A stretch of DNA of 64,000 nucleotides from Dioscorea cayenensis subsp. rotundata (Eukaryota > Streptophyta > Magnoliopsida > Dioscoreales > Dioscoreaceae). Location: NCBI RefSeq assembly GCF_009730915.1, contig NC_052484.1, positions 2,068,326 through 2,132,325 of the forward strand, read 5' to 3'. This document shows, piece after piece, positions 26,945-55,376 of the stretch. Made by a program: the position numbers and the translations under genes. Below the pieces are notes generated by a model. The model had not been told where the DNA came from, did not search any database, and saw only the letters and a program-made list of their open reading frames with translations. Position 1 is the stretch's first letter. Each line of letters begins with the position of its first letter.

Positions 26945-29135
26945 ATGGGAGAGGATGAGAGGAGGAACTTGGCTTCAGAGTTAGCAAAGGATGTGGCAGA
27001 GGAGAAGGGAGTGTTACCTCCACCAGCTGAGCAAAAGCCTGATGATTCTAAAGCTCTTACTATTGTTGAGAGTGAGATCTCTTCTTCTTCTTCTTCTTTT
27101 CAGTTCTTCTCTTCTTTTTTTGTTTTTTTTTTTGTTTTTGCCCTTTGTTTTGTTGTTTATAGTTCAATTTATTCTCTTGTTTTGAGAAATTTTGTGAAAG
27201 TTGTGGTTTTTTTCAGTGGGATTTCTTGATTTGTTCTTAAATTTTTTTTCTAGGGTTTGGTGAGGATGGAGAGATAATTTTTTTTATAAAAAAATAGATA
27301 AATAAATATGAAAATAAAAATCAAAAAGGAAAAGTGGCTTTGGTTGGGATCCTATGATGTGTTTGTGCAGGAAAAAGCTGAGAACTTTGGTGGACCACAA
27401 CCTTTGCAAATTCCAAGTTCACAGTTTCAGAGAAATTCTCTTCTGTTTTTTAAAAGATTTAATTTTTTTTTTTTTACAACTTGTTATTATTAATTTGTTT
27501 AATTAATTCTTGGTTAATGTTCATGATTTGTACATCTTGCAAGTACTCTTTTTGACTGGTCTTTTGAACTTTTTCACAGCAAGCACAATCATTCTTTCTG
27601 CTACTTTATTGCACCACTTCATCATCATTTTATATATATGTTTAGATCCTTAATTTATTGTGTTAATTGTTGTCTAATTTTGAATTTTAATTCTTGTTTT
27701 GTTTTTTTGTAGAGGTTGCAGATCCACCAGCTGAGAAAATTGCTGACAGAGGTGAACTATTTGTTTTATTTATTTATTTTACATGGATTGTCTTGTTTTA
27801 TAACATGTTTGTGTGATTTATGAACTACTTGTATTTATTATTATTATTATTTATTTTAGAGCATGAATTCTTAAGTTTAAAACATGTTGAAATGAGAGTT
27901 GAGGTTCATGTGAATTATGATATTGAAATTTCAGATGCTATTCTTGCTCGAGTGGAAACTGAAAAGAGAATGTCTTTGATCCGAGCTTGGGAAGACAGTG
28001 TAAAAAAACTAAAGCTGAAAAACAGGTAAAATCTTCAATTTATTGTTCTGATATTTCAAGCCTATCATTTTTTATTAACATAAAACTGTTATGTTTTTAA
28101 CCAATCATGCTATGCTTTTTCATGGTATTTTATTTCATGTTAATCTCAAGCATATGATTTTCATTACATATGGAAACTGCTCTTCTTTACATCTGTGATC
28201 ATATGCTACTTCTCTTGGTGTTAAACTCAAGCATACCATTTTTTTCATTACATATAAAACCTTTTTTTTTTTTGTTTTACGTTGATGATCATAGACTAGT
28301 CATGCTATTCTTTCGATGCTATTTAACTTCATGTTGATAATCTCATGAGTATCATTTTCCATTACAAATAAAACCATCTTCAACTCTGCAATGTTTGTCA
28401 TGCTATTTTCCTTGATGTTAATGTTAAGCATATCATATATATATTTTTTTTATGTATATTTTCATAAACCACTCATGGCTGTTTAATTCATGTTAATCAC
28501 AAGCATATCGTTTCTCATTACATACAAATCCCACTTCCTTTGACAGTGATGATCATAGGCCGACCATGCTCTGTTTTTCATGTTATTAAACTTCTTCGTG
28601 TTAGTATATGATTATGCTATTTCACTTCATGTTAATCTCAAGCATATCATTTTTCACTAAGCATAAAACCTCTGTTGTTTTTTTCATCTATGATCATATT
28701 CTAACCATGCTATGCTTTTCATGCTATATATTTAACTTCTTGTTAATCTCAAACAGAGCTATTAAGAAGATGTCGGCGATTACTTCATGGGAGAACACAA
28801 AGAAGGCATCTATAGAAGCTCAACTAAAGAAGATCGAGGTAACAAAATTTATTTCATCTCTCTTATCGACCTTTATCATTGCACATGATCAATATATCGA
28901 ATATAAAGGATAATTTGGATGAATGCATGAGCAGGAGGATTTAGAAAAGAAGAAGGCAGAGTACGCGGAGAAAATGAAAAACAAGGTGGCAATGGTTCAC
29001 AAGGCCGCGGAAGAGAAGAGAGCATTCACCGAGGCGAAGCGAGGAGAGGATATCTTGAAGGCTGAGGAGGTAGCTGCAAAGTACCGTGCCTCCGGCCTTT
29101 CTCCAATAAAGCTTTTCGGATGTTTCGGTGCTTAG
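26945..29135 (+). CDS. Group-1 remorin, plasma-membrane nanodomain protein
   Basis: Exons 26945-27071, 27713-27751, 27935-28025, 28757-28838 and 28935-29135 encode 179 residues; all junctions are GT-AG and in phase. Remorins coat the inner leaflet of the plasma membrane in nanodomains and affect plasmodesmata and responses to pathogens and symbionts. The N-terminus is short, acidic and Pro-containing (KGVLPPPAEQKPDD); the Remorin_C coiled coil spans about residues 55-175 (DAILARVETEKR, ITSWENTKKASIEAQLKKIE, EDLEKKKAEYAEKMKNK, EAKRGEDILKAEEVAAKYR). The C-terminal anchor ends in SPIKLFGCFGA, whose Cys is a likely S-acylation site. At residues 76-81 the usual T-K-A-E core is replaced by L-K-L-K through apparent compensating indels (see findings). 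Sense-strand CT repeats and a G-box precede it. Confidence 0.95.
28080..28756 (+). repeat. Diverged tandem array in remorin intron 3
   Basis: About six to seven degraded copies of a 75-140 bp unit with the core tt(c)atgttaatctcaagcat, followed by atcatttttcattacat. Cores start near 28139, 28219, 28335, 28416, 28491, 28630 and 28740. The last copy reads gttaatctcaaacag and contains the functional acceptor, so the real 3' splice site is one member of the array. Confidence 0.75.
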
Positions 29136-29691
29136 AATTCGATCAAAACATAAAGGAAAAATATCGAAATCTCATTGAAGGTTCTCTACTTGTTTTAACT
29201 TGTGTACCACTCTCTGATCTATATTATATTGAGTTTGTTGTTGGAATTGGTTTGTTGTAGGTTGTGAAACTGATGAAATTTGTAATGTTTATGTTTGTTA
29301 ATTATTGTGTGTAAAAGTGTGATGTTATATTGTTGTTGTTGTTGTTGTTGATGTTGTATAGTTGTAGTTTTTGAACACAAGGGGGTTTGATGTTGTATTT
29401 TTATTATTCTTTAGTTTGACAACTAAAATTATAACTTTTAATAAATCACTTTTATTATTAACCAATAATTATATTTATTTAATAAACTAAATTTTGCATA
29501 TTAAAAAAAAAACATGTTTGATATGTTTAAAACATGTTTACTTTTAATCTGTCATATTGTAAAGGTATCACAGTAAAAATAAATGTTGTTACAGAGGTAA
29601 GCAATAAATTTCTCTTAATCGTTAAGTACCAAAAAAATTAAAGGAGAAATTTAATGGGTACAAATAGCAATGATGATATATATATATATAT

Positions 29692-29882
29692 GGAAAAAAT
29701 AATTTAGATATGCTAGTAGATTTGTTTAAAGATGTTTAATTACAGCTATGTTATTGTGCAACACTATGGAACACATTTTAAACCGTTCATGATGATCATA
29801 ATCGTCATATTATCATCTAATGGTTACTATAAATATCTCTAAATTTTAGATGGGCCATACTTAAATTACTCACCCTTATATT
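29692..29882. mobile_element. MITE-like fold-back between (TA)n tracts
   Basis: It lies between (TA)n runs at about 29676-29691 and 29883-29902. The left side (aatttagatatgc...aaagatgtt) and the right side (aaatatctctaaatt...aaattactc) are imperfect inverted repeats. Non-coding, about 190 bp. Confidence 0.45.
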
Positions 29883-30018
29883 TATATATATATATATATA
29901 TATGGTTTTTTATTATAAATAAAAAGTAATTACTATATTGCACAATTAAAAGTGGAATAAACAATACTCAGATTATTGTACTTATAAATAATATACAGTA
30001 AAAAAATAAAATACATAA

Positions 30019-30256
30019 TATTTTAATCTAAACAGTTCAATTTATTGTTTGTATAATAATCAAATAAATCACAACCATGAAACTCTTTTTCTATTTCGTT
30101 TAAAAACATACAAATCAAACCTAATTATTACTACCAGTATTTTAATCTAAACTATTCAATTTATTGTTTGTATAATAATCAAATAAATCATAACTGTGAA
30201 TCTCTTTTTCTATTCCGTTTAAAAACATACAAATCAAACTTAATTGTTATTACCGG
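30019..30256. repeat. Two-copy tandem duplication, 119-bp period
   Basis: tattttaatctaaac at 30019 recurs at 30138. The two copies match closely throughout (ttcaatttattgtttgtata, aataatcaaataaatca, cgtttaaaaacatacaaat). Confidence 0.9.
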
Positions 30257-30699
30257 TGAACATCTACGGACGTCCTCGGAAACCCTTTTCGTGGTATATA
30301 AACCATTCATTAAGGGGGAAAACGTACAAATGAAATAGAACTATGAAGAAAAGAAACAGTAAAAAGTAAAAAAGTTACTTCACCCTTCACTGATACAGTG
30401 ATACTTAAACAAGTGTAAATCAGAACAGTACTAGTCATAGTCAATGAGAAGATAATGGTCCAAAGTGAAGTAAATGAAGAGTGAGAAACACCAAACTATA
30501 TAATATAATATATAATATATATAATTTTATAATAATATAAATATAAATATAAATATAAAGAGAGAGATATCTTGTCATCTTATCTCATGTGTGTGTAATT
30601 TTTATGTATGTAAATAGACTCAAAGGCTAAGACAGGACAAGAGAGGACTTGGGATGATGCATTTAATGTTTTTCAGAATGATAATGAATGCAAGCAATT

Positions 30700-30733
30700 G
30701 TGAGTGTGAGTGTGTGTGTGTGTGTGTGTGTGC
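30700..30733. repeat. (GT)n microsatellite
   Basis: gtgtgagtgtgagtgtgtgt... runs into a perfect GT alternation. Confidence 0.9.
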
Positions 30734-31804
30734 ATATGTAAAACATTTACTTGCAAAAGTACTATTATTACTTGTATTGTGCTATTTATTTTATTTGAGT
30801 ATCATATATGCATTGCATGCACCACATTAAACTTTCAAAATTTATCACACGTGTGCTCTAATGGGTTAGTTAGGGTAAATATAGTTAGTTTGTAGAATAT
30901 AATATCATAATTAACACTTATAGAATTTCTAAAATTGATAATTAATTTGATTAAAAAAAAATTAAAGTGACAATAATTTAAACCTGATATAGTATTATTT
31001 AATATGAATAAACGGTAAACTTGACAAATTAAGCATGTACCCATTTAACTTTTGAATTTACTCATAAAATTAGAGATAAAATAATTTAATATTTGTTTTT
31101 TTTTAAATAAATATAGACAATTATCAAATCATCAACTTTTCAGTTAGGAGGAAAATAAGAATAGTGAACTAGTATTTTTTTTTTCAAATATTCAAAAGTT
31201 GGCATTATATATATATATATATATATTAGATGGCAAATATGAACATTCAAATGTTATTTATTATTTAAGCCGGCTTATCTTAATTTTATCTGTTAGTGTT
31301 TGTATGGTGAAGATTTATTTGTAAGCATAGGTAAACCTTTGAAATCTTCCACCAATGTCAAAAAAGTACATAAATTAAAAGCAAGCATGTATTTGAAAAT
31401 AAAGTTTTAATTTTTTTCAAAAGAAACTATTTTTTAGGGGCGTTATTCATGATATAAAGTATAATCAGTAATTCTGAGCATCACTTTTATAAATAACAAC
31501 TGTTAAATAATAATCTAATAATTATCGTCAAACATTCTATGTTTTTAAAATCAAGACATACGTAAAAAATTTATTTTAATATATGTATATTTTCCTTTAA
31601 TAATATTGATATTTTATTATTATTTTTTATCTAAAACAATTATGACTATCATTTTTGGATGTGTACGTCGACTCAATTTTCATTTTCATCAATGTACTTC
31701 ACAATTTTGCTAGACAAAAATCATTTATGGCATATGATACTAAATCAAAATTATGAAAAATAAGGAAAAAAAATTATTATATTTTTTTAAAAAAGATTTT
31801 TTTT

Positions 31805-31975
31805 AAAAGCGACAATCTAGGAAGCTCGAGGCGTCGTATGTGAGGAGCAAACTTAGCACCGACCCACGTCCGCCTCACTGCGCAAAAGCAGTGATATTTT
31901 TATCCCGGGATCGCTTCAGCGAAGCAGGCGTTCTAGCGATGGGACCAGGATCTGCAATTGACCCAGCTGTTTGGT
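31805..31975. other. GC-rich structured island of unknown origin
   Basis: About 170 bp of GC-rich sequence in AT-rich surroundings. It contains short perfect hairpins: cactgc-gcaaaa-gcagtg near 31876-31893 and gcttc-agc-gaagc near 31913-31925. There is no open reading frame of note. It may be a fragment of a retroelement; I do not recognise it. Confidence 0.4.
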
Positions 31976-32637
31976 AAAAAAATTGCCACTCCTTTTCTCT
32001 CACAATGATATAACATATAAAACTCCATAATAACAATAACAATTATAATAAACACAAGATTTGATAAACACATGCCCCAAAAATAAATAAATAAAAATAA
32101 CTGAAGACACAAACATAATAAGTAACTAGAAGATAACCAAAACACTCATGGTTTAATAGCAATTGAACTTATTACTCAAAAAAAATAAAATTAAATAAGA
32201 CAACCAAAAGATCTCAAATTCAAAACCTATTAAAAATAATAATGATAAATAATCATCAGTTATAAATACAGACTCGTAGGCTCGTAGCCCAATCTCTCAT
32301 TCCAGTTATAAATACAGACGATTAACTCTTGACTAAGAGTATATGAATTGAATGATTATCACATGCGCACACACCAGTCACTTGTTTTTTTTAAAAAAAA
32401 AATTAAAAAAAAAGCCAGAATATATATTTATAAATTCCAAATTTAAAATCCACAAAAAATATAATACACAAAAAAAAAAACCCTCCATTTTTAATTACTA
32501 CATATCATCATCATCATCAACATCATCCCACCAAACAAATAATACAATACAAACCCTTCAAAAGCTGGAAACTCAAGTACTCCAGCTCCTCAAAAAACCA
32601 CCACCAAAAGCACAAACCCTTTTCACACTGAACACTT

Positions 32638-34354
32638 TCATTTCATTTCAGGACTAAGTTCAAGATCACTACTTTCAAACAAAGAAGTGAAATTCCCGAA
32701 CTGCCCCTGAAAAAAGCTCATATTTAAATCATCACCCGCAGAGGAGGCGGCGGCGGCGGCGGTGGCGCCGCCGGAGCCGGAGAAGTCTAAGTAGAGCTCG
32801 TAGGTGTCATCGTCGTCGTCGTCTTCATCGTCTTCGGCGTCGCCGTTGGAGCTCGAAGCGTAGCTCTTGCCCTCGTCGAGAGGTGGTGTCGCAGTGACAG
32901 GGCGGCGGAAGGCGTCGCCGATGTCGGAGTTCCACATCCGGAGGAAATAATCGGGTTCCGGTCGTGCTGCGATGAGGTCGGAGCTGGAGGCGGAGAGAGT
33001 TGGGGTTGGGGCAGTGGACGAGGAGGAAGACGAGAAGAGAAGGGATTCGCGAGATAGACGAGCTTCGGCTTCAAGTCTGGCGCTTTCCCACTGCGCCATG
33101 TGACGCGCGGAGGAGGATGAGGAGGAGTTGGTCGACGACGATGGGGATGATGATGGGGCGTAGGTGTCAGGGTTGAGGCCCATTCGGAGTAGACGCTTCT
33201 TCAGGTGAGTGTTCCAGTAGTTCTTGATCTCGTTGTCGGTTCTTCCGGGGAGTTGTGCTGCTATCGTCGACCACCTGTTTGATGGAATTCCACTGAGAAT
33301 TTGAGCTCTCTTGTAGACTAAGAAATGGCAATGCTTGCATGCCTGGTAAGTGTTTGATGGAATTCCTTTGAGAAGTTTAGTGAATGTGGGATTGCAGGAG
33401 AGGTGTTTGATGAAAAGTTTCAGAGAAGTAGAAGTGCAAGAATGGTGTTTGATGGAATTCCTTTGAGAAGTTTAGTGATTTTGGGAATGCAGGAGAGGTG
33501 TTTGATGAAATGTTTGAAAGAAGTAGAAGTGCAAGAATGGTGTTTGATGGAATTCCTTTGAGAAGTTTAGTGCTTGTGGGAATGCAGGAGAGGTGTTTGA
33601 TGAAAGGTTTCAGAGAAGTAGAAGTGAAAGAAAGGTGTTTGATGGAATCCCTTTGAGAAGTTTAGTGCTTGTGGGAAAATGCAGGAGAGGTGTTTGATGA
33701 AATGTTTGAAAGAAGTAGAAGTGCAAGAAAGGTGTTTGATGGAAGTCTATTGAGAACTCTCTTCACTTCAAAGTAGGAATGCAGGAGAGATGTTTGATAA
33801 AAAGGTGTAGTAAGAACTAGAAATACAAGAAAGGTTCTTGATGGAAGTGTCTACATAGAGAACTTCACTTCAAAGGATGAATGAAAGAGAGATGTTTGAT
33901 AAAAAGGTCTACAAAGAATTAGGAATGCAAGAAAGGTGTTTGATGGAAAGTTTACTAAGAACTTCACTTCAAAGTAGAACTACAAATGCAGGAAAAAGAA
34001 AGATGAGAGCATACTTGTTACCAACAATGCCATGAAGCTGAATAATGGACTTTTGTTCTTCAGGAGTGAAAGGGCCACGCTTGATATCTGGCCGGAGATA
34101 GTTTGTCCACCTCAACCTGCAACTCTTACCACACCTCAGCAGACCTGCCAAACCAAAAACAAACAACCAATGAAAAACAGTAGTGAGTATTCAACAGTTG
34201 ATGAAATTAATGAATGCATGCCTGCAAGTTTGGGAAGTGATCTCCAACTTCCATGACCATTGGCTTGAATGAAGTCAATTAAAATCTTATCTTCTTCAGG
34301 CGTCCATGGACCTTTTTTCAAGCCTTGTTTATCACAACAAGGAGCTCTTCCCAT
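32638..34354 (-). CDS. R2R3-MYB transcription factor, MIXTA/MYB41-like C-terminal motif
   Basis: Exons 34222-34354, 34015-34144 and 32638-33274 encode 299 residues. The first junction is GC-AG (exon ...CTTGCAG, intron gcatgc), the second GT-AG; both introns sit at the classic R2R3-MYB positions (phases 1 and 2). The R2 repeat has Trp at residues 21, 41 and 60, beginning [18 protein letters not shown]3 shows the F/W/W pattern ([42 protein letters not shown]). A bHLH-interaction signature is not apparent. After a Ser-rich linker comes [20 protein letters not shown], a motif shared with the MIXTA-like (MYB16/106) and related MYBs active in epidermal, cuticle and suberin programmes. An acidic run ([15 protein letters not shown]) near residue 245 is a likely activation region. 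Exon 3 is GC-rich. The subgroup call is inference. Confidence 0.93.
33275..34012 (-). repeat. Tandem array filling MYB intron 2
   Basis: Seven to eight copies of a 95-102 bp unit (plus-strand core tgtttgatggaattcctttg, later gaggtgtttgatgaaa and agaagtagaagtgcaag). Unit starts are near 33276, 33351, 33446, 33541, 33636, 33733, 33835 and 33937. Each unit also carries a half-length internal echo (gtgtttgatg). The first copy, at 33275, contains the real acceptor, read on the minus strand as ggaattccatcaaacag. The array runs almost to the donor. Confidence 0.92.
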
Positions 34355-36595
34355 TGTTCACAACAGTGTGTATAAGAAACAAGCAAGAAAAGAGTGTTTG
34401 TTGTGATGATGTTGGTGGTGGTGCATTGGAGGGTGAGGAGGAGGAGGAGGGATGTTGGTATAAATGCTGGGATTTCACACCTGCAAAAGAAAAATAAGCA
34501 GGTGAGAGAGCAGGAGAAGGTGGCAGAGTAGGAGGAGTAAATGAGGTGAGGGAGAGGGTGATGGTGTGGGGTATGAGAAAAGTACATGCAGAGATTGCTT
34601 CAAAATTGAAACACAGAAACAAAGAGAGAGAAAAAAAGAGGGAAGGAAAGGGAGTTAATGTGTGGAGGAGTTAATGAGGTAGTGGTGTATTGAAAGCACT
34701 GAACTTGGGGTTCACTTTGGCTGCGGATTATTTAATGCATGTCAATGATTTTTTTTATTTTTTATTTTAGGGTGTGAAAGTGTTAATTTTTGTCTTTTTG
34801 AGAATTCCATGTAATTGTGTATTTTAATTTTTTTTTTAATAAGTATAATTAAGTGTTTATATTTTATCGAATTAGATTGTTCTAGTTTATGGTAATATTT
34901 TTATATATAATTTATTTTTATAATATTTTTTGTAAAATATTTGGTCATTTATGCTGTAAATTTCTGATCTAATTTTATTAAATATGAAGATTTAATTATA
35001 TTTAAAAAATTATAAAAAATAAAAAGGTAAAAAATACACAATCACATGGACCTTCAATTGAACCGTGTATATGATCATATTTTCTAGCTTTTTGTACTTT
35101 GAGAAAATTTGTTATTTGTTATTTATTTTTCTTATTTAGTGTAAGGATAAAGTTTGGACTCTGGTATTGTACATTTGATTGATTTGATTGATTGATTGGT
35201 TTATTTATTTATCTATATTTGTTTTGCATTTTCTTTTGTTAGTGAAGGAGGAAAATTGGTGGAATTGGTCAAGTTCAGGTAAACAAGGGAAAGGTTTTGA
35301 CTGAGGATTTGGTGAAAGACCATCATTTTTCACTGGTTCTGTTTGTGCTGCTCTGAGATCTTGCCTCAGCTATATTTGTGCATGCATTGAGTAGGGTTTT
35401 TAAAATTTTGGAAACTATAAATTTTTGACTGGACATATACTGAAGCTCCTCAGGTACAAGTTATGTTTAAACTTTTCTCCATTAATGTTATATATATATA
35501 TATATATATTTGTGTTTTTAATAGGAGTCTGAAATAGTAAAAGTTTACTTGTTTGAAATTGATTTCAAAAGAAGAAAAAAATAAACATTCACCTGAAAAT
35601 TACCAAATTTCAACTCCATAACTCCTTAAATCATTAATATATTATATACATTCTAGGGTACAAATGTTCATACTTGAATGATTTGTTGAAAAATTTTTTT
35701 ATCATTGTCGTCGAGCTCGATTAATGTTGTTTAAACAAGCTAAATTCCTCGAGTAAATGCCAAAGTTCAACATAACTCAATCAGGAAGTTTATTTAAAAG
35801 GCCTAACTTGTGCAAATGCATTGATGCTTTCCATAAACTTCGACAATTAAAACATAACCTTCGGATAAATAGAATACGGCTTTTCATTCGTACTCGATAT
35901 TCTATTTACCTCGAAACAAAAATGAGCATCATCAGAAGGTTATCTGCCAACCATTTTGTAAAATGTGACACAATGTTAATGTTCCCAACTTGAAGCCCTA
36001 ATTAGAGAATGAAATCAGATACACTGAAAAAATCAAAAGGAATTCACGCTTAAACACATCCAATGGCTTAAGCAAACATCAGAAGGTATCTTGGATAGAA
36101 AAAGCACCTCACAATTAAAGATGTTGATTCAGTACAAACAATTCCTTGGCTGGAAAAAGCATTAAAACAGTCTTAAGCTAAAGATTCCCTACGTCGAATA
36201 TGAAGAAAGACATCTAATATCAGACTTAAGGGAAAGCCGACAGCATAAATCGACATTTAAAGGGTCCACATAACGAGTTGCATGTTGTACCTTGTTTGAT
36301 CAAATGCCCCGGGGCAACATGATTGCGACAACCTGGTGAAGATGGCAAAATATTAAATCAATGGCCACAAAAGGTATGTGTTGTATAGTTTCCAAGTATT
36401 TTATAAGATAGATTGTAAAAGCATAGAATAATTAGTGTATGGTGTCATGCAATTATGCAAAAGCACAGAATGGTTCATTTTATGGCGGAAATTTTGAGTA
36501 ATAAATGAAAAAAAAATCTTGGTACATACCCGATAAACAGATATTTACAGGTAGGAAGGTCCTCGAATTTATTCATGATGCTATTACCGAATGTA
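34355..36595. other. MYB upstream region and helicase downstream region
   Basis: The first few hundred bases hold the MYB promoter/5' UTR (GA/CT-rich). Then AT-rich DNA with a (TA)n tract at 35488-35509. The helicase 3' UTR probably occupies the right end. Open frames here (for example 35757-35993) have no recognisable content. Confidence 0.5.
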
Positions 36596-41605
<5,010 letters not shown>

Positions 41606-41998
41606 CAATGCAACCTCTCTCAAACTCCAACAAAACCAACAAAAAACCGAAAAACTACTTCCGATCCCGAAAACCTAAGCTGAATTAGAGAGCACAGAGA
41701 CCAATACGAGCTAAATCGAAGAGATCCGAGGGTTTTCGAACCCTAATTTGGGGAAATCGAGGGATCGGAGATCGCCATGACGCGCTGGATTTGAACGTTT
41801 CGGTGGGGGCATCGCATGATATGTTTTTTTTTTTGGGGGAAAATCGAGAAGATGCGATTAGGGCATCCGAGATTTAGACAGGGTGTTAAATGACACATAT
41901 GCCCTCCTCATTTTCTTTATTTACATATCATTTTTAAAAAAATTTAATCAAAATTACATTTTTTTTTCATAAAATAAATAATATACTAAAAATTATTA

Positions 41999-42290
41999 CT
42001 CTCTCAGTTCCTTTTTACTTGTCATGTTTTGAATTTTTTTTATTTTACTTGTTATATTAAAAATTTTGCGCAGCATTAAGTAATTTTTTTTCTAAATTTA
42101 TCTTTTAATTTAATGTACTTGTACAATTTTCAATAAATTACAATCAATTTAGTGGAGTTTTAAATAGGGGTAGTTTTAAAAAGTAATAGAATTTTTTTAT
42201 AAAATATAGGTAATTAATTAACTATAACTAATTTTTTTAATCAGTGTAAATTAAATAAATATGACAAATAAAAAACAACAACGGAATATT
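41999..42290. mobile_element. Stowaway-type MITE, copy 2
   Basis: It begins ctctctcagttcctttttac right after TA (41997-41998). The right end, in reverse complement, reads taatattccgttgttgtttt followed by ttatttgtcat. The ctc-c-gttcc-cttttta-cttgtc terminus is characteristic of plant Stowaway elements, and the interior aligns with the copy at 15411-15699. Confidence 0.75.
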
Positions 42291-42690
42291 ATTTTATATA
42301 TATATATATATATAATGGGGTGTGGTTGTTCATATTATCCACATCAATTATCACATCATTGCCACAAAATGATAAAAAAAAATAAATATTTATATATTAA
42401 AATTCAACAATAGTCTTGAAGGAATGCTCATTTTCAATTATAAACATTTCATGATATATATATGGGAAAATTATTTTTAGCCTCTGAAAGTTTCAAAAAC
42501 ATCCCGATGAACCGCTCGACATTTGAATTCTACGGGACAGTCCCTCCTTTTTTTAACGGTTCTTTTTCAATCTCGATAGTTTACTTTTCAATTAATGCGA
42601 CTTCTCAGTTAATTTATTCTATTTTTACAAATGACGTACTTCCCGCTTAAAAATATATAGTTTTCATTTAACATAGCGTGTTTTTGTTTT

Positions 42691-42900
42691 AATCACATAA
42701 GTTTTCACTTAATACATAACACATTTTGCGTTTAAAAATTTGACTTTTTCCGCTTAAAATTATGGGTTTCTGCTAAAAGTTGGTGTTTTTCGACTAATCA
42801 CATAAGTTTTCACTTAACATATAAGCACTTTGCGTTTAAAAATTTGACTTTTCCAGCTTAAAATTATGGGTTTTCGCTTAAAAATTTGTTGTTTTGCTTA
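42691..42900. repeat. Two-copy tandem duplication, 105-bp period
   Basis: aatcacataagttttcactt at 42691 recurs at 42796. Both copies continue with ttgcgtttaaaaatttgact and cttaaaattatgggttt. Confidence 0.85.
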
Positions 42901-43295
42901 AAAATGGAGAGTCGCTCGGGTTAACATCCATACTTTTATGTCAACATCAATCACCTTTATGTGCGGGCACGTATGCGAAAAATAACACGTCGAGAAAAAA
43001 GAAGGGACGCTTTTAATCTTTCCAAAGTCAGTGGGATTTTTTTGTGAATACCTGAACTTTGGAGGGACTTTTTTTTATTTATTTCAGGTATATATATATA
43101 TATATATATCATAAAGTTAATATATAGCATTTTACAGGGTATAAAAAAGCAAAACAAAACTTATTAATTCATATTGCAATCCGTTAAAATAAAAAATGTC
43201 TATGATACTAAAATAGTACAACCATTTATTACTTAAAGTGATTTTTTTTCCAGAAATACCTCATTAAACTCTATAATGCAGAGAACATAGGTATA

Positions 43296-43480
43296 GTCCA
43301 CCAGTGCTCACTGGTTCTCATGTGCTTTATATTTAGATGTTCGAGTCTTTCACAAATACACATTTGGGACATCTTGTAATAACAACACTAATTACTTATA
43401 TTCCTCTCCTGGAGTTATATAGCTTTAACTCGTAAATATACATTTTAGACCCCTATGGGAACAATAGTTCCACATGTTTT
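43296..43480. repeat. Dispersed repeat, member 1
   Basis: Contains ctggttctcatgtgctttat, then ttcgagtcttt, acaaatacacatttgggac and ctcctggagttatat. These phrases recur in the same order at 50516-50640. Non-coding; class unknown. Confidence 0.6.
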
Positions 43481-44235
43481 TCCCCAGGTTGTATAGCGTA
43501 TTACTAATAACTTAAGAGAAAATCAATTAAAATGATATTAATAATTAAAAATGATATCAATATGTCGACTGATTTATCTAGTCTTTTTTCTTCTTACTAA
43601 AGAAAAGTAGAATGAAAAAATTCATATGGCCCACCCAAATAGTTAGACTAATGATTTTTTGTTGTAATATATCAAGTAAATATAAAATATTTTATTGGGC
43701 GGTAAAAAGGTAAAAAAAAAAAAAAACAATTGATTGATGTTGGAATACATTTTTTATAAAGAAAGATGTGCATGATGTGAACATATCCTTTTATTTGGTA
43801 AGAGATTAGCTTGAATGTTAAAAAAACATAATGGATCATTCACCATCATAGATCTTATATATTATTATATTATTAGATTCCAATTTGGGCTAAGATGGTG
43901 GAAAAGTTCCTTTTTTTCCATTTATGTTAATTAATGACCATGTTGTCTAAATAATTTGAATATATTTTGTAGTTTAATATCAAGTAGGAACTTTTGCATA
44001 TAATTATATTATATACTACATTTATATGAAATAAATAAATAAAACTTGGCTTATTTTTGTCTTCCTTATTCATTTCAGAGATATTATCTCTTTGTATTAA
44101 TCACAAATAAAAATATTTCTATACGGGTATTTTCAATATAATATACATAATTATATATATATATATATATCATAGTATTAGCTATTTATCCAAATAGATA
44201 ATTATCCAAATAAATAATATTATTTAGGGAGTTTT

Positions 44236-44588
44236 GCAGGTGTACCCCTAAATAATTTTAAAATTGCATATTTGCCTCTAAATAATACATATAATTGCGT
44301 ATATACCCTTTGGATCCGTTAACCAATAGCAGATCTATAAAATGACCATTATACCTTTTGCATGCATACCTTTGAAAAAAAAAATTTATTGTTATGCTTA
44401 AGATGTACAAAGGTTATTTTAGACCTTTTGTATATCTTAATCCAAATTATAATTATAGTTAATAAAATTTGATTAACTTCTGTTAACGAAATCTACCGTA
44501 ATTACATATATTGTTCAAGGGTATATACAATTATGTTTTTTCTGAGGGTAAATATGCAATTATAGAATTTTTGAGGGGTTTATAACCA
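44236..44588. mobile_element. Fold-back (MITE-like) element with nested hairpin
   Basis: The left arm (gcaggtgtacccctaaataa ... attgcatatttgcctc ... ataattgcgtatataccctt) matches the reverse complement of the right arm (aagggtatatacaattatg ... gagggtaaatatgcaatta). Arms are roughly 90 bp. The centre has its own hairpin near 44398-44437 (aagatgtacaaagg / ccttttgtatatctt). Confidence 0.65.
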
Positions 44589-45115
44589 ATTTTAACTATT
44601 ATATTTATTGTACTTTTGAAATTACATATAAACCACAAGATCATATTATATTTGGCTTTTAACCCAATAAAAATATTATATGTATGAACATTTTTATGGT
44701 GTAATTAAAAAAAGGTACAATCATCATTCATGATTATATTTCTCATATAAATAAAATATATGAAATGTACATATATATATATATATATATTAAATATGGT
44801 AAGAGAATGAGCATCATCCATCTAATCCATCATCTTTTGAAAACTCTAGAATATAAGCATCACCCAATGACAACCAGCAATCAAGGAAAGCAAACCCTAA
44901 AAAAGCTCCAAGTCATTCATGGTGGGGTGGCCATACCACCATCAATAACAATGTAAAATAAAAATTAAAATTACTTATATACCCTTAAAAATAAATAATA
45001 CCTCTTTACATACCTTTAAAAAAACTCAGTCTAAAATTCTATTAAAAAAATACATAAATTTCTGAAAAAAGAAAACAAACAATTCATTTAGTCTTTTATG
45101 AAATATATATATAGC

Positions 45116-45348
45116 AAAACATCCTTTGTGGACATCCATAGATAAGAAATGGACGTTCAATTATCAACCGTTTGATCGACATTGATGAACATTAGTATTG
45201 TGTGTTGTACTGTTCCGAACAATAATTATCGTACATATTACTGTATTAACTACTATTCATCAATGTTAGTCGTTGAATCAAAATCTAACGGCTAATAATG
45301 AATGACCATAAATTTCTTATCTATAAACGTCCACGGAATGGTCCTCTA
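45116..45348. mobile_element. MITE-like fold-back between TA tracts, family A copy 2
   Basis: Terminal arms are inverted repeats: catagataagaaatggacgt near the left end against acgtccacgg / tttcttatctataaacgt at the right end. The middle shares phrases with 16111-16328 (tgatgaacattagtattgtg; gctaataatgaatga). Bordered by TA runs. Confidence 0.65.
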
Positions 45349-45538
45349 TATATATATCTCTCTCTCTATAAACATATGCATTTACAAGGGTATATTGGTA
45401 ATTACCTATTGTTTCAGGGTGTGCAAGCAAAAGACACTTCCTTTGTCTCACCTTTTTGAATTGAGTGGCAAACCACAACAAATTCTCTCCCATTCCTTCC
45501 TGACATGACCTTACTTTTCTCCATTTCATTGAATTGCA

Positions 45539-45996
45539 TTGAATTCCTTCTCTTCTTCTTCTTCTTCATCATCATCACTGGCTTCAGGGAAGAAGAACAA
45601 ATGCACCTCATTGGTGTGTTCTTGTTATGCACCAGCACCTAAAAACAACATAGAAAGCAAAGAAGTGAGCAGTAATGGCTACTTTAATGAGCCATGCCTT
45701 CAAACAAAACAACCTCTCAAGAGCAACATCAAGAAGGCAACAACAGCAATAGTAACCAAAGAAGAGGAGCAGCAGAAACAGAGGAAGGTTACTTGGCCTG
45801 ATGCTCATGGCATGAACCTTGCTCATGTTCATGAGTTTCAATCAAGGTAACAGAATTGATCACAGGTGGATTTATGCATTTGAATAAAGCTTGGTTTTTG
45901 AATTTTGTTTTCTTGTGGATTTTGTTTTCCATCAGTGTGATTGAAGAGGTGGAGCTTCAAGGAGTGAGAAATTCCTGTGTTTGTGCCATTCAGTGA
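45539..45996 (+). CDS. Small plant-specific protein with WPDAHG motif and C-terminal CaaX box
   Basis: Two exons: 45539(?)-45846 and 45936-45996, GT-AG, in phase, about 122 residues. A Ser-rich start is followed by a Cys-rich patch (KCTSLVCSCYAPAP), then KVTWPDAHGMNLAHVHEFQS, which I recognise as the core of a family of short uncharacterised plant proteins. Exon 2 adds VIEEVELQGVRNSCVCAIQ and a stop. The final four residues, CAIQ, fit a CaaX prenylation signal, with a second Cys two residues upstream. No in-frame ATG precedes the conserved part: the frame opens at a TTG (45539) just after a stop, so the true start is either a lost ATG or lies on an upstream exon I cannot place. Function unknown. 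Confidence 0.65.
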
Positions 45997-46969
45997 TAAC
46001 TTATCTGCAGATCATACATATGAACAACAAGGTAACTTAAATTGATGACAATTGGATGTGTAAATGTGAAGATAGTTTAGCTTTTGAGTGTGTTTTCTTG
46101 TGCATTTTTTTTTTATTTCAAATTTTCTTGTGTTTCTGTTATTTAATGAAAGGTCTATAAAGATCAGAAATATGAACAACAGTTGAACATTTCAGTTTAG
46201 TTATTCATTGCAAGTTCTTTCACTAATTATCTGAGTGATTTTATATTTGAAAACTAGAATAATAATTCATCTATTTGAGTGTTTGAAGTGCTAGAAATGA
46301 TTTAGTTATCATTTTGGAATAATGAATTCAAAGGAAAGAGAAGAACCTGGAGTACAAGATCATCAGCTATTTAAGACATAGGATTGCCATTGCCGAGCTT
46401 TTTCAATGCTCCAGATGATTCAGTTGATAAGAGAACATCTCTAATTCTCCTGCAAGTAATACAATGAGAAAAATTGCTCTCAGGCTTTCTGATTTACAGA
46501 AAAGAAAATCTTGGATAACTATAAAAGGTAATCAAGTAGACTTTACCAGAGATCAAATTTGGGCATGATGAAGAACACTTAGCCAGATTGTAATGAAAAA
46601 ATTAACATCAGAGTACTATATGACCAATTTCAAGTCATTCCTGCAACCAGTACTATTACGGTGATTATGTGATAAAGATAAACAACTAACAACATTAGCA
46701 TAGCACTGAGGATAAGTTCAGCTGAGGTGCAAAATGTTACACCGATGTATTGTGTAAGAAACAGCAAGATGTAGTGTTCAATCAACAATGGTTTCTTCAA
46801 ATTTTCATAGCAACAAATAATCACTGTTATTTACAAACTTTGGACAAGCTTTTATATGACTGCAATTTCACAGATGGAAAACAAGATACAGAGAAATGGG
46901 AAATGTTAAGGTCCAAAGCACTTGAAGAAAGCTTGTGAAAGAGAGACAATGGATTGCTAGTTGATTCTT
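45997..46969. other. Spacer between the CaaX gene and the Aux/IAA gene
   Basis: 3' UTR of the small gene, then about 700 bp with no recognised gene. A 79-bp minus-strand open segment at 46371-46449, preceded by an AG, is discussed in the findings. The small frame at 46750-46938 is not convincing. Confidence 0.45.
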
Positions 46970-49324
46970 CTATTTATCTTTGCATGCCATGAGGGACAAT
47001 CTTGTATTGAAGTCAAGCTGGTATAATTCTTGGCCTGACAGACTTGCAGAATTGAGACCTCGGTGATCCGGCTAGTGATAACACAGAAAATATTAAAAAA
47101 TAAAATATAATAAAATAAAAGAGCAATTCTTGATGAACAGTAAACAACACTGAACTGAATACAAAATTGTGAGCATGCCAAATGAACAGTCCCATAAATA
47201 TATGGGCAATAGGAATTGGATTTAGTCTTACCAAGACCAATAGCATCAGAGGTTCTCATGATTCTGAGTCTTTTCACAGTGATCAGGAACATTCTGATTA
47301 GATATACTTCACAGTTAGAGAAATAGCCTAGTAGTATATTTACTGATATCATATATGAGAAGCATGCATACCCCCATGGAACATCACCAACCAGCATCCA
47401 GTCCCCATCCCTGTCTTCATAAGTGAGACTGAACCCTGAAGAGCCATCAAGCATTTGCGAGGCCTTCAAGCCATCTACTAAAATAAGTAGCAATCAATCA
47501 AATAGTACCCAGAATCGATTCTTCTTTTGTCTGTAATTCCATGGATATCAAGGAGAAAATACAAAAGTGAACTCACAGGTGAATGTATCATGATCATTGT
47601 TGGATTTGCAGAACATGTCCTCTAGTGCAAGCGCAAGGGTCTCGTAGGAATTATGGGCATTGAGATCCACTTTCCTCCCAATGGGATCTCCATCCATGTT
47701 CACCTTAACAAAATGCGTACTTACTGTACACCTTATATATTTTTCTTGATTGTTACTGTCCGTATCCTCCTTAACAACAATTTTGTCAATTTTCTTTTGA
47801 ACAGAAGTTTCTGCTTCTGATGTACAATCTTTCGAGTGGATAGCCAAGCTGTTCATTCTGCAAATCTTTATAGGAGGCCATCCTCTCGCCATTTGACTGT
47901 TCCCAGAAGCATAATGCATATTTTTAAGTGAAAACACAAAAGAAAAAGACCTAAAGAAAAGAAGCATAAGCATATGCATAGAGTCTCCACTAAGACTTGG
48001 TAATTGATATTGTTACTTAAAATTCAATGCAATTTGTATGTAACAATGATCAGTGCAAACATCCAAAGAATTTTCACTCTAACCAAAGAAAACTCAAGCA
48101 GGGCATATTGGATTACTACCCTAACATTGTTGTTAGTTGCCTGCCTCTTCTCCGTGAAAACCATACTACTTTGACATCATTCCTATTTAATCATTTTCAG
48201 TAGAAACATGAAGCTGCCCTCATTCTCCGCTAAGAGCAAAATGAGCATGAGAAATCAAGAGCGTCCCCTCAAATCACTGAACATTTACAGTATCATCGCA
48301 AATTGCATGCAACCCCATCAACTACAACATCCATGTGATACATGAAATTGTCAATGGTTGAGCAAGATGATGTTATCATGCACAAAAATTGGCGGCTAAG
48401 CATCTTTTCCCTAGTATAAATTCACTTAATTTCATGCTTATCTTCTTTCGAATTTTGGGTGAAAGAATCTCAATAATTGCTTGTTTTATCAGCAAAAAAC
48501 CTAAAACTTTTCCATCAAAATCAGTATCAACATCAACAGCTATGGTTCCTCTTTCTTATCCTATTGATTTCGATGCAGTATTCCTGCAAGATATCTCTCT
48601 AGAAACATAAAAATTGACAAACAATCCTCTTGATCTTAATCACACCATACACTTGAATAACCATCAACACTTCACCACCTCAAAAGAAATAAAAATTCCA
48701 GTTTGAACTTCCCAAATCCATGGAATTCACTTCTCCAAATCATTACTCAATCCATTGGTACTAATCCCACTCATCACAACTTCTTACTATGAAAAAACCA
48801 CAAATTTCCCCCTTTTTCACAATAAAAAACCTACAAAATCATGTAATTTTAGATAACTAAGTTTCACAATCAAACAAAAAATCAGAATTCATAGATGCAA
48901 AAATCAAAATGAAGAACAATTCCAACACTTGAATCACAAGTTCTAAGGCTGGAAAATCATGTAATTTTAGATTAACTAAAGTTCTTAATCAGAATTCATA
49001 GAATCAGAAATCAGAAGAACAGGTATAAACTCAGGCTCACCCGTGACAGTGAGAGGGTGGCGTCCTCCCACCGGCGCCGGCGGGAGAAGGAGCAGACGAA
49101 GAGGAGGAGACGGAGGAGGACGAAGAGATTGGGGATCGAGAACCCAAATCCTCAGCAGTGAGGATCCGGCACGCCATCCTACTACCTCTGATGAGCTTGC
49201 TCGTCCTTAGTGTCAGCCCGAGGTCCAGCTCCGCCGCACTGGCTACCTCCTCCGCCCCAGTGGAGCTTAGCTCGGACGGCACAACGGCGGCAGCGGCGGC
49301 GGAGCAATCGTCGACATCGGCCAT
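46970..49324 (-). CDS. Aux/IAA auxin-response repressor (IAA11/12/13-like)
   Basis: Five exons (49041-49324, 47577-47896, 47372-47477, 47232-47293, 46970-47034) encode 278 residues; phases agree. Aux/IAA proteins bind ARFs in the nucleus and recruit TOPLESS until TIR1/AFB-auxin triggers their degradation. Domain I is LDLGLTL (33-39), an EAR motif; a Ser-rich stretch follows [11 protein letters not shown]; domain II is ARGWPPIK (98-105), followed by ICRMNSL. The RMNSL after the degron resembles the IAA11/12/13 branch. The PB1 domain follows: [17 protein letters not shown] with the basic face, and [16 protein letters not shown] with the acidic OPCA face, ending [19 protein letters not shown]. 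The residue before GWPP is Arg instead of the usual Val. The last small exon (QELYQLDFN...) is supported by phase only. Exon 1 is GC-rich. The start is the first in-frame ATG. Confidence 0.93.
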
Positions 49325-50026
49325 GGATTCTCTGGGATCAGAGTTCTGTGGATTTTGAGGGAGTTGATTGTAAAATGGATTTTTTTGTGGGTCCAAATGA
49401 AAACATTATTTAATAAAATAAATATATAAATAAATAAGGAAGAGTGACATGGTATTTAATTTTATTTTTTTTCAGGGGCTTTAATGTATAAAACCCATAT
49501 TATTTGTATTTTTTTGAGATATAATTAAAACTGATTAAAAAATGTATTGCTTATTGGAATTCTCAAAGAAATTAATTTTAAATTTATTTTTCTAAAACTT
49601 AACAGATTTATTTTTATTTCATAAATATATATATATAGGATAATAAATTAAAATAAATGAAGTAAAGTTAAAAATATACATATTATTAATACAATTTTGT
49701 TTTGCTTTTTTTTTTAATGGTTTGGTGTGGTGGTTCATCAAATGAATAAATTATAAATTTGTTTCCTTGATATCTTAACAGAAATAACCTAATAAAATGG
49801 ACCCATAACCACCAAGTCCACCTAACTCATTTAAAAAATACATGAAAACATCAACAATTTTGTAGAATTTTTTATTGCAATTTTACTAAATTTATATTGT
49901 AATGTTTTTCTTTTTTAATGAATGTGGATAAGCTAGATGATGATAATACCAACTCTCATATATAAGGAATGATTTTTATTACAATGTTTTGTTAAATAAA
50001 AAATATACTCTATATACATGTATTTA

Positions 50027-50066
50027 TATATATATATATATATATATAACTTGTTTATATATATAT
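50027..50066. repeat. (TA)n microsatellite flanking the SINE
   Basis: TA-rich tracts around 50023-50048 and 50056-50066 immediately precede the SINE. Confidence 0.8.
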
Positions 50067-50067
50067 A

Positions 50068-50247
50068 GCCAACGACCATTTGGTCTATTGGCATCGGGTC
50101 CCTTACGTAGAGTGTTCGTTTCGAGTGTCGAGCGTGGCTCCCCGAGTTCGATCCCCATCTCGCGCAAGGTGAGGGCACGGTTCGGTGGTGAGCGTTGCTC
50201 TCCCACGTGTTCGTCCCTGGGTTCTGGCGCTTGTCGCCTTTCTCAAA
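50068..50247 (+). mobile_element. tRNA-derived SINE, family 1 (best copy)
   Basis: About 180 bp. A box TGGTCTATTGG at 50081-50091 and a perfect B-box core GTTCGATCC at 50146-50154, a normal pol III internal-promoter spacing. It starts gccaacgacc and ends ggcgcttgtcgcctttctc before an A-rich/(AT)n tail at 50246-50272. It is much more GC-rich than the flanks and colinear with 17517-17695, so this copy looks young. Confidence 0.75.
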
Positions 50248-50515
50248 AATATATATATATATATATATATATACAAGGAGTGAGATTACTATCTAAACAC
50301 ACCTGTATTCTTACCTGATGTGAGTTGAGATTCAAACTGACCTTTTTCAAAGAGATACGAACATCATTCACAGGGGATCCAATGTCCACAGATCAAAAAA
50401 TCATTGGCTATATATATATATATATATTTGTATCAATGGACATCCTCAGAGCCGTTAGATTAACCTATGAAGTAAAATTATTATCATTTAACTGGACTAT
50501 GGACGCATAACTCAT

Positions 50516-50640
50516 TGGTTCTCATGTATTTTACATTTAGTGGTAACTTGAATCAGAATCTTTTAACTCGCAAATGCACATTTGAGTCCTTTGTAGGAAG
50601 AATAGTGATTCCTCCCCTCTAAAGTTATATATTATGCGAG
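50516..50640. repeat. Dispersed repeat, member 2
   Basis: Shares attggttctcatgtatttta, ttttaactcgcaaatgcaca, tttgagtc and ctctaaagttatat with 43296-43480 in the same order. Confidence 0.6.
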
Positions 50641-52118
50641 ATTTTTCATTGAGATTTTTTAAGCCACTGTAATTAGTGTATTTTTGTGCATGCATGTTAT
50701 ATGACAATCCCGTGAGTAAAAAAACGCTTGTCATTTATTCATGTAAATAAAAACTATCATCATATTTATCCATGATTTGATGGAATGCAATATATTTTGA
50801 TGAGATTGGTTTAAAAAATAACTTTATTTTGTAACTAAACACCATATTATTATTATTATTATTTTACAATGTGGATAAATTACCCAACAACGTGAATAAG
50901 CCACCTTAGACAACACACAGTTTCTGTTATTATGCCTCATTTTTTATTAAATTATATAATTTAAATAAACATATTAATATTAATAACCACATTTTATTAA
51001 TTACAAGTAAAACAAAATCCACAGAATTATTGAAGAAAATAGTGGTCATCCCAAACCATAGTATGGTCCACCTCATGGCATTGTTGGAGGAATTAGAGAA
51101 TGGCAACATGGGGACACTTTGGAGAAACATTTTGCAGACAATGTTTGGTCCCATTGGACTTCTCATAAATTATATCAGCCACTCATCTAAATCTTGTTTC
51201 TTGTTGGATATATATACATCATTAAAAATATCATTAATTCCTCCAAAAAAAATAAAAATAAAAATAGTACAAGAAAAAGTATGTTTTAAGATCTGTCCCT
51301 AGAAGAGAAGATAGATTCAACAAGAGAGACACAAACAGGTCCACAAACTGTTGTTTGTCTCAATGGTTTCTCATTTTTTGGTATTTTACATTTTATTTTT
51401 ATGTGTATATAAAATTATCAAAACCAAGATTTATTAGTAATAAATTAGATAGGTATAATATCCGAATTGATTTTTCTATTTTTCTCTCTTTCTTATTGGT
51501 CTCTCTTTAATAAAAAAGATTTTTTCATTTTTTAGTCTTTCAATTTAAAAATGCTCTCGACTAATTCCTCTACTTTTAAAAATAAGACCACTCAATCTTT
51601 TTTACTCTTGAAAATAAATCAACTATTATTTATATTTTCAAAAGTAAAGGAATAAATTAAAAAAAGACTAAATGAATCTATTTTTAAGTTTACTTCAAAA
51701 ATCTATTTTTTTAAGAGCAGAAAAGACTAATTTGGGAGCTTTTTCTTAGTAGAAAAATTAAAAAAAATAAAAAAAATAGAGGGACCAATTTAAATATTAC
51801 ATCAATTATATATGCAAAATATAGTGATTTTCTTTTGCTTGGAATAATAAAAATATGCATCTGTTACAACCATAACATGCATCAGTATCACTGAATATTG
51901 CCATAATAATACTGAGAAAGGGATAAAGAAACAAAGATAGAAAGAGATCACACCATATAAAGATAAAAAAGAAGAAAAAAAAAAGAGTAATAAAAGGATC
52001 AGCAACGCTACCACATCAGCTCCACACACAAAGTTACAGTGGAAGCAGAGGGAGGTTGATCAAAATGGAGTATGTGTAACAAACTCAAATATCAAATGCC
52101 AAACAATATGCATCATCA

Positions 52119-55100
52119 TCAGCATCGATTGCCGCTGCGGCAAGTGAGCACGCCTGCGCCGGAAGTGATCGAACCGACCATTGATGATGACTTAGCTCCG
52201 AGACTTGAAGCCCGGGAATAGCTCGCTGAAGCCCCGGCCCCAGATGGAGTGAAGTAAGCGCCGTTGAGGAGTAAATCACCTTCCGATCGCCAATTCCAGC
52301 TCTTCCATGCCCCGGCATTAGTGTCTACTCTTTTCGTAACCTGTCACGAGGTTTATAAATTTCAATTGCAAGTTCGAAGCAGTTTATTCAATGGAGTTAA
52401 TGTAAATGTTATGTTATGGTATACCTCTTTTGCGAAAGGATTCATCGGTGCAAGATATCGGTTGCCTTGACTGTTTATAGTCGGATCGGCACTGCCACCG
52501 ATCGCATACATTTCCCAGTGAGTGTAGTCATTGTTGACAACATGGAAGTAACCATGCCTGCATCTTGGCATCCTCTGAATTAGACCTTCGCCGAAATGGT
52601 TAAATGCAATGGTGACTTGCATGGCTTTGTCCCTGGCATAAGAATCACTGTGACCCAAAAGCATGACTTCATTGTGATGAGTGAAGTAGTTGTTTGAAAT
52701 TGTGATGGCTGTTGAGCCTATGACAGCATCTATAAGTCCATCAGCGCAATTGGAGAGTGAGCAATGATCAACCCAAATATGGCTTGAGCCGAAGATGGAA
52801 ACGCCATCACCGTCAGCCATTGTTCTCCAGCCATAGTGAGAAGGTGAACTGCGGACCATGGCATTGCCAGTGGGCTTGCAGTCATGGATGTGGAGACCAT
52901 GGATGATGATGTTCGTGACGAATTGAATTGTTAAACAGGCACCGTTGGCAATGTGGACATTGACACCGCGGCCATCGATTGTCTTGAAGCTGTTCATTAT
53001 CAGCTCTTCCTTAAGTGTGATAACCATGTCTCGCTTGAAGACTATCCAGAGAGGTTCATCTTGAATGACAGCATGGCGGATAGTGCCTGGGCGGGGATTA
53101 ACTGGATCGTCATCACCTGGGTCACTGACAACGTAGTAGCGCCCATCACGGCCGCCAATGGCATTGCGGCCAAAGCCAATGCCACAGTCTGCAAGTCTCT
53201 TACGGTGAAGATGCCAGTCAGGATCACAACGCCAGCAATCATCGATGGGGTTGCCTGTGCCACATGATAAGTAACCAAGAGCACGGCGAGCTGTGTGATT
53301 GTTGATTGTCCTGTTCAACATCATGATCCTAATTAGCATTCTCATCACAAATGATAAATTCCTATTCATAAAATCATTGAATAATATCCTAATTGACATT
53401 CAAATCACAAAAAGAGAAGGTAAAAATCAGAGCTAACTGATGAATTCGCATTTCATATAATTATTGTCCCGTTCAGCATCAATATTCTAAATTCTAATTC
53501 TAATCACAAATGATAAATTAGTAGTTCATTTATCATTGTGCACTTCAACTTCATGATCATAATTAACATTCTAATCACAAATAGAGACTGTAATTCATAA
53601 AGTCACTGTCCTGTCCAACATCATATCCTAATTAACACTCTAATCACAAAGGGCGAGAGTAAAAATCAGAGCTACATGATAAATTTGTATTTCATAAAAT
53701 CATTATCATGTTCAACATCATGTTTCAAATTAACATTCTAATCACAAATAACGAATTCGTAGTTCATTATATCCTTGTCCAGTTCAACTTCACAATCTGC
53801 ATTAGACTCTAATCACAAACAGAGACAGTAAAAATCAGAGCTTTATGAAGTAATTATCTTTCATAGAATCATATGAATCTCAATGAAATGAAGTCCATAT
53901 TACTCTTCCATCCTTCATAAATTGGTGTACTATTTAATTTCATTTATATCTAACAAAGAAGAGCATTCAAAACTTCCCAAAGCATGTGTTTTTTGGGTGG
54001 TTGTTGAAGAAATATTCTGACTATTTTAGAAGGGGAAAGCAAATTGCATCCCATATTAGAAGGGAGCAGCAGAGCATGTGAGGAGGAATTAATGAAGGGA
54101 AAAGAAGAGATTGGTGGCAAAAGCAAATAAAGTCTGGTGGCTTGGAAAAACAAGAACTGACACTGAACTAGCACTGCGGAGACTAGAGACAGGACAAGAG
54201 GCTGGTAGCAAAGAACACAAGCAGAGAACGTGGGCTCTGCTCACTGGCCATTCAATGCTTGGATTGTGGTCAATAGTACACCGGCGTGTGCCTTTCTTAA
54301 AGAATTATTTACTAATAACTAGCAATAATGAATCTTCTTCACCTAAAACAGGCAGCTAACTCATTCATAGCTTAACTACTTTCCAAGATATAAATTTAAA
54401 AAAAAAAAATATTTTTATAATTCTAAACATATTTATATATATCAATAATTTAAAATCTTTAATATTAATTTACTTCTTCTCTATTTTACTAATAATGTTT
54501 GTAAAAAAAATAGCTATTAAAAAAAATGAAAATTTTAACAACTCTTTAATACATTGATACTAATCAAGGCATGAAATTGATGTAAAATTGTTTAAAAAAA
54601 TCAGATAACTTTATTGAAAAATAAAAGATAAAAAATTTATCACTTACATATGGACTTCAGTGGCAACCATCTCCGGGTCATCTACCGCACCATGCACTGG
54701 TTCATGTTCAAACCTGAAAAATTTAAAAAAATAAATAAATATATAACATTTTTTTTAAAAAGTGTTAAATTACCAAATTGCCCTGCAATAAATAACACTA
54801 AATAATGAAATCTCGTAAAAAAATCGAGATCAAGGACGCATTATCTCCGCTATAAACCCGGTGCAGCTCGTCACGAGAAACGAGAAATTGGTTACTACTC
54901 GGGAGAAGTACACGGCTCGAGGTGGTCGGTGCCTTCATTATATCGAAAGAAGGCGGGAGAACCGAGAGGGGTCAAAAGGAGATTCTAGTAAATTGACCCC
55001 CTTTTATTTTTTCCTATGAGACTGAAATGACAGTATTACCCCTCTAATTTTTCTTTTTCTTTTCTTTATTTTAAATTTTTTAATATAAATATTTCAGTGC

Positions 55101-55345: not shown

Positions 55346-55376
<31 letters not shown>

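Follow-up and report, generated by a model that had tools for sequence, protein, structure and literature searches.

Tandem arrays whose units duplicate the 3′ end of an intron together with the start of the following exon have been described in amphioxus, where such minisatellites, termed mirages, occur in the genes BflGb6, BflGb9 and Adh3 (PMC3087553, passages on these genes). According to those passages, the units measure 150-160 bp in BflGb6 and 10-72 bp in Adh3, the BflGb6 units are 81-100% identical and vary in number between haplotypes, and BflGb9 also duplicates the 3′ exon boundary; many copies bear potential splice signals, and in the same passages the authors report no apparent interference with regular splicing. 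Tandem duplication has also been linked to the gain of introns. In potato, a single tandem duplication spanning an intron-exon boundary of the RdRp gene gave rise to a new intron (excerpt of PMC4974935), and in the Drosophila cases of intron gain by tandem duplication (the AGGT model), duplication of an exonic proto-splice site makes a new intron (excerpt of PMC2891723). Here we describe a stretch of 64,000 nt from Dioscorea cayenensis subsp. rotundata (contig NC_052484.1, positions 2,068,326 to 2,132,325), referred to as the window and numbered from its first base, in which introns of a remorin, an R2R3-MYB and a pectate lyase (PL) gene carry tandem arrays that reach the 3′ splice site (acceptor). 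The array of PL intron 3 extends into the exon and looks like a tandem duplication of the intron-exon boundary, similar to a decayed mirage. The arrays in general are likely to be ordinary, minisatellite-like intronic arrays that would have arisen by repeated local tandem duplication, at different times and in unrelated introns.

Tandem arrays in the introns of the window

The window, whose G+C content varies between 23 and 42% in 2-kb steps, was compared with itself without gaps at lags of 35-259, with 12 Markov-simulated windows as controls. This comparison gave 44 self-similarity segments of at least 32 bits against a mean of 0 in the simulations, so that the tandem arrays which an earlier, sequence-only reading of this DNA had reported in introns of the remorin, MYB and PL genes are real and not due to chance. 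Segments of at least 30 bits fall into 13 clusters, five of them intronic (remorin intron 4, MYB intron 2, PL intron 3, AUX/IAA intron 1 and PL intron 2), two coding, one corresponding to a TC-rich stretch at the start of the remorin gene, and five intergenic or unclassified.

Introns were taken from five genes whose junctions were checked by translation and Pfam, namely remorin on the plus strand and R2R3-MYB, a DEAD-box helicase, AUX/IAA and PL on the minus strand. The set comprises 23 introns, 21 of them backed by a continuous reading frame; its weaker members are remorin intron 1, a GT-AG intron with a donor lacking frame confirmation, and remorin intron 2, the donor end of which is approximate, the remorin gene having been read no further upstream than the exon that follows intron 2. 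The reading frame is unbroken across the junctions of all three array introns, and the products match Remorin_C, Myb_DNA-binding and Pectate_lyase_4, respectively. Each spliced product has one intron per site and matches its family, and the intron positions are presumably of great age. As the earlier reading had noticed, the copy nearest to the exon holds the acceptor in all three genes, with a score reached by 0 of 300 shuffles in each; we infer that this last-copy acceptor is the one in use.

The boundary-crossing array of pectate lyase intron 3

PL intron 3 (53311-54647, minus strand) is a GT-AG intron with a continuous frame, and its acceptor lies at 53311 (GTTGAACAG/GACAATCAAC, the slash marking the splice junction here and below); the product gives a Pectate_lyase_4 match of 3.9e-21. 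The tandem array (53305-53872, minus strand) crosses the acceptor and continues through the first six exon bases (53305-53310). Its copies stand 70-97 nt apart, with a last interval of 158 nt that contains a copy whose site is deleted, and are 67-83% identical. The exon begins with GACAAT after the AG, and in the same place five upstream copies read GACAAG, GATAAT, GACAGT, CACAAT and GACAAT, an agreement at 26 of 30 positions that is reached by none of 116 common register shifts (mean 8.1, maximum 17). This agreement breaks from +7 onwards, with 0/5 at +7, 5/5 at +8 (A), 0/5 at +9 and +10, and then 2, 2, 1 and 0, one single alignment running on to +13 with mismatches. The match over these six bases and the break at +7 therefore indicate that the duplicated unit crossed the boundary by about six nucleotides. 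The sixth copy, which has lost its site by deletion, keeps the CAAT beyond it; this copy was left out of the identity comparison and of the exon-overlap test and included in the six-copy alignment.

In the order of events proposed for this intron, the duplicated segment would have extended over the acceptor as far as the sixth nucleotide of the exon, so that the intronic copies would carry the acceptor region together with GACAAT; only the last copy would join the coding exon, and the upstream copies would subsequently have decayed. Like the amphioxus mirages, as far as the passages on them go (PMC3087553), the units of PL intron 3 span the 3′ end of the intron and the exon start; unlike them, they include only 6 nt of exon, are more decayed and reside in a plant. 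In contrast to the single duplication excerpted for potato RdRp (PMC4974935), several copies lie within a single pre-existing intron, and an additional exon is not formed. The likeness to intron gain under the AGGT model, as given in the excerpt of PMC2891723, consists in a local tandem duplication that involves splice-site sequence, and the difference is that existing introns are lengthened here. The process looks like a known and mostly ordinary one, without new machinery, of which PL intron 3 is a plant example that is perhaps new. Word searches of the literature, whose coverage leaves out many journals and is no proof of absence, did not bring to our notice any study of multi-copy arrays at the acceptors of plant introns, and no minisatellite passage was found in the main text of PMC3902484. 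If boundary-crossing arrays were common in this genome, they would offer a way of intron growth that can be measured, as well as a source of decoy acceptors, and plants would share the mirages described in amphioxus; the present yield is one clear case in one window, together with two predicted alternative splice sites (PL 53611 and MYB 33293, see below).

Whole-intron arrays in the remorin and MYB genes

The array intron of the remorin gene (28026-28756, plus strand), numbered fourth here and third in the sequence-only reading, has GT-AG ends, the acceptor CTCAAACAG/AGCTATTAAG and a continuous frame, and the 136-aa product, whose reading starts at the exon that follows intron 2, gives a Remorin_C match of 3.4e-31. 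A degenerate tandem array occupies 28034-28756 (plus strand), from donor position +8 through to the acceptor, with clear copies spaced 75-197 nt and a pairwise identity of 67-89% over 60 nt among six copies. All five of the clearest upstream copies read AAGCAT at the acceptor register; two out-of-register rows found with a loose motif and two more decayed copies were left out of the counts. The homology runs out at CA, on the final intron base or directly before it, and past the AG the five copies agree with the exon at 13 of 30 positions, as well as 12 of 116 shifted registers do.

R2R3-MYB intron 2 (33275-34014, minus strand) is likewise a GT-AG intron in a continuous frame, with its acceptor at 33275 (CCATCAAACAG/GTGGTCG) and a Myb_DNA-binding match of 1.4e-35. 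Its array (33275-33984, minus strand) is built from a 95-bp unit composed of two related subunits of 42 and 53 bp; the four acceptor-side units are 92-97% identical, and the homology ends at the penultimate intron base. Toward the donor the array starts at +35 in the end test described below, or at +30 for the best alignment. All 14 upstream matches to TCAANCA read CAAACAC or CAAACAT, and past the AG agreement with the exon amounts to 15 of 72 positions (12 of the 14 upstream matches used), which 54 of 116 registers equal. Intron 1 of the same gene (34145-34221, minus strand) has a GC donor instead of GT (GCAG/GCATGC), GC donors being a known minor class of splice site.

The remorin and MYB arrays include no exon sequence, which sets them apart from the mirages of the amphioxus passages (PMC3087553), and are plain whole-intron arrays. 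For both genes it is proposed that tandem duplication took in almost all of a short intron, which would yield an array that begins closely behind the donor and ends at the acceptor. The single-unit equivalent of the two introns, roughly estimated at 120 nt, is close to the lengths of the shorter introns in the window (77-160 nt in 9 of the 23). For the arrays in general, slippage, end joining with duplication, or unequal exchange are candidate mechanisms.

An unlikely alternative for these two genes is that the arrays arose anywhere in the intron and that later deletions, at short CA homologies, brought an internal unit up against the final base of the acceptor, in which case the upstream units would have been without an acceptor from the start. 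Such deletions would account for the fact that the homology of both introns runs out at CA, on the final base or directly before it, and for the non-AG state that the upstream MYB copies and the five clear remorin copies share in register. They require, however, an extra event in each of two genes, and do not fit PL intron 3, where the homology enters the exon. The common non-acceptor state itself points to a single event, or to a duplication that ended before the final G, rather than to repeated silencing.

Placement of the arrays relative to splice sites

The sequence-only reading had taken the three arrays as signs of a recurring process that expands introns from their 3′ end, for example by slippage or template switching near acceptors, with decoy acceptors silenced by mutation. 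As a specific process of this genome, with decoys silenced under selection, such an expansion appears quite improbable to us. In its favour, three of the five intronic arrays end within 0-1 nt of the acceptor or cross it. When an array of the observed length was placed randomly in its intron, the chance of an acceptor gap as small as that observed was 0.11 for remorin, 0.05-0.10 for MYB (depending on the array start), 0.0013 for PL intron 3, 0.97-0.98 for AUX/IAA intron 1 and 0.52 for PL intron 2, under three settings of array limits that were entered by hand, those of AUX/IAA partly by eye. The combined p for acceptors over the five arrays is 0.006-0.008; without PL intron 3 it becomes 0.17-0.24. 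Since the remorin and MYB arrays fill nearly the whole intron, their contact with the acceptor is nearly forced and carries little information, and because the excess rests on PL intron 3 and the hypothesis of an acceptor bias was formed on the same data as were used in its test, a genome-wide 3′ bias is weakly evidenced.

Repeats approach donors about as often as acceptors. In the end test, which compared the 15 introns of at least 150 nt with 300 shuffles (the eight introns under 150 nt being left out), acceptor-end homology at the level of 0/300 shuffles was found in three introns, remorin intron 4, MYB intron 2 and PL intron 3, and donor-end homology at p ≤0.003 in four, remorin intron 4 (+8), MYB intron 2 (+35), AUX/IAA intron 1 (+19) and remorin intron 3, the signal of the last being AT-rich low complexity. 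Two further arrays, absent from the list of the earlier reading, do not reach the acceptor and are counter-examples to a 3′ origin. In AUX/IAA intron 1 (47897-49040), a two-copy duplication (48826-49016, minus strand) lies 24 nt from the donor and more than 900 nt from the acceptor; its limits are 48880-49016 from the self-comparison, the second copy extending to about 48826 by eye. Both copies end in acceptor-like sites, TTTTCCAG and TTTTGTAG, which score 8.6 each in the weight matrix described below against 6.9 for the real acceptor, and a GT follows the second. In PL intron 2 (54714-55720), a degenerate array with lags of about 200-250 nt occupies the middle of the intron (54968-55489, minus strand). 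With two of the three original arrays filling their introns, two others avoiding the acceptor, and donor-end homology in 4/15 introns against acceptor-end homology in 3/15, expansion specifically from the 3′ end is unsupported as stated. What holds of the recurring process is local duplication that takes in the acceptor region; its 3′-end specificity finds only partial support.

Several points weigh against reading these arrays as ordinary local duplications. Acceptors are met to the base or crossed by arrays and donors less precisely, the combined placement p for donors being 0.54-0.55 against the value given above for acceptors, so that a real asymmetry between the two splice sites may exist. 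In none of the three array introns do the six bases that open the intron recur exactly, and the MYB array shows modest homology on its donor side, where the score of 39 equals the 99% point of shuffles (p 0.003 in the end test). Moreover, the GACAAT on which the boundary crossing in PL intron 3 depends is short, and ancestral intron length and copying direction are putative, as they derive from one haplotype of one species. A further, rather doubtful proposal is that the acceptor region is a recurrent start of duplication in this plant lineage, with introns growing stepwise by boundary duplication in what would be a plant equivalent of the amphioxus mirages; splicing would tolerate this growth since no acceptor but the last leads into an open reading frame or has sufficient strength.

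Decoy acceptors and the question of silencing

Acceptors were scored with a weight matrix made from 20 other acceptors, which score 3.7-14.2 when themselves included and −1.8 to 11.3 when left out one at a time. The matrix ranks sites only loosely, because its basis is 20 acceptors and scores of up to 8.8 are obtained by unrelated AGs of these introns: AGs elsewhere in the array introns exceed the real acceptor with 6.1 at −210 (remorin), 8.3 at −542 (MYB) and 8.8 at −863 (PL). Weak acceptors were considered as a cause and rejected; the remorin (−0.7) and MYB (1.0) sites fall below all 20 self-included training scores, yet within the leave-one-out range.

The statement that upstream copies carry near-miss acceptors is correct for all 14 MYB matches, the five clear remorin copies and five of the six PL copies, and fails for one PL copy and for AGs in or beside the remorin decoys. 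In register, the PL decoys read TG, AT, AG, TG and GG, and the sixth has its site deleted. The intact decoy (53611-53612, minus strand; GTTGGACAG/GACAGT), 300 nt upstream of the real site, scores 6.5 against 6.4, and its use is predicted from the translation to lead to an in-frame stop after a few codons. In remorin, where the real site scores −0.7, the AAGCAT of the copies contains an AG that precedes the acceptor register by 3 nt and scores −1.1, and another AG, in a more decayed copy at offset −407, misses the register by one base (−0.6). In MYB intron 2, a predicted alternative acceptor AG (33293-33294, minus strand) lies 18 nt upstream of the assumed site and scores 2.6 against 1.0; according to the translation, it would insert six codons in frame (GNNGIPSNRW).

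That none of the five clear remorin copies and none of the 14 MYB copies reads as an acceptor, and that five of the six PL copies are broken in various ways, is what silencing under selection in the 3′-end expansion would lead one to expect. Against it stand the one unbroken PL decoy, which equals the real site in strength, the remorin AGs, with scores similar to that of the real acceptor, and the in-frame alternative AG in MYB. In addition, the AG survives in one of six PL copies, a retention that 10 of 44 other adjacent base pairs equal or fall below, so that a faster decay of the AG is not established. Whole introns hold 14 AGs against 21 expected in remorin, 29 against 18 in MYB and 75 against 68 in PL, without a common trend of depletion. 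Together with the state shared among the MYB and remorin copies, the intact PL decoy, the comparison of base pairs and the AGs in or beside the remorin decoys do not bear out a selective silencing of decoys.

Relatedness and age of the units

The units of the five intronic arrays are unrelated to each other in 20 comparisons covering both orientations (lowest shuffle p 0.21), which agrees with the earlier conclusion that they do not derive from one transposon. Comparison of the units with the window by blastn gave three matches outside their own introns, of 22-39 nt, and within the window neither related units in several genes nor dispersed copies, as would mark introners or transposon-derived repeats, were found. 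Insertion of mobile elements or satellites into the introns is accordingly very unlikely: the PL intron 2 units do resemble dispersed AT-rich repeats on reading, and the window has other arrays outside introns, but the units are unrelated between introns, have only the three short outside matches in this window-only search, and in PL intron 3 include exon sequence of their own gene. A false expansion of a short intron during assembly is hardly credible, as nothing was found in its favour and numerous substitutions and indels separate the copies, which are 67-97% identical.

Divergence, the sole basis for dating, suggests that the duplication events probably differ in age among the arrays, with identities of 92-97% in MYB, 67-83% in PL and 67-89% in remorin. 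Such a difference per array is expected of the separate events assumed under local tandem duplication in unrelated introns.

Other features of the window

Two genes at 0.5-13 kb, whose introns were not modelled one by one, had no scored intronic array and a single repeat cluster, located inside a long reading frame. Of these genes, at 558-7192 (plus strand) and 9130-12619 (minus strand), one may code for a SHOC1/ZIP2-like meiotic protein, for which Pfam gives only a sub-threshold EF-hand_13 match, and one has an NT-C2 domain (4.4e-14). A duplication with a 48-bp lag lies at 6904-6989 within a long open reading frame and repeats RSPSIIDSY in the translation. A two-copy tandem duplication of 198 bp, which itself contains a 45-bp duplication, is found at 56631-57036, upstream of the pectate lyase gene. 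Other tandem duplications, intergenic or unclassified and with lags of about 83-208 bp, are located at 14968-15345, 30019-30257, 42651-42882 and 62871-63135.

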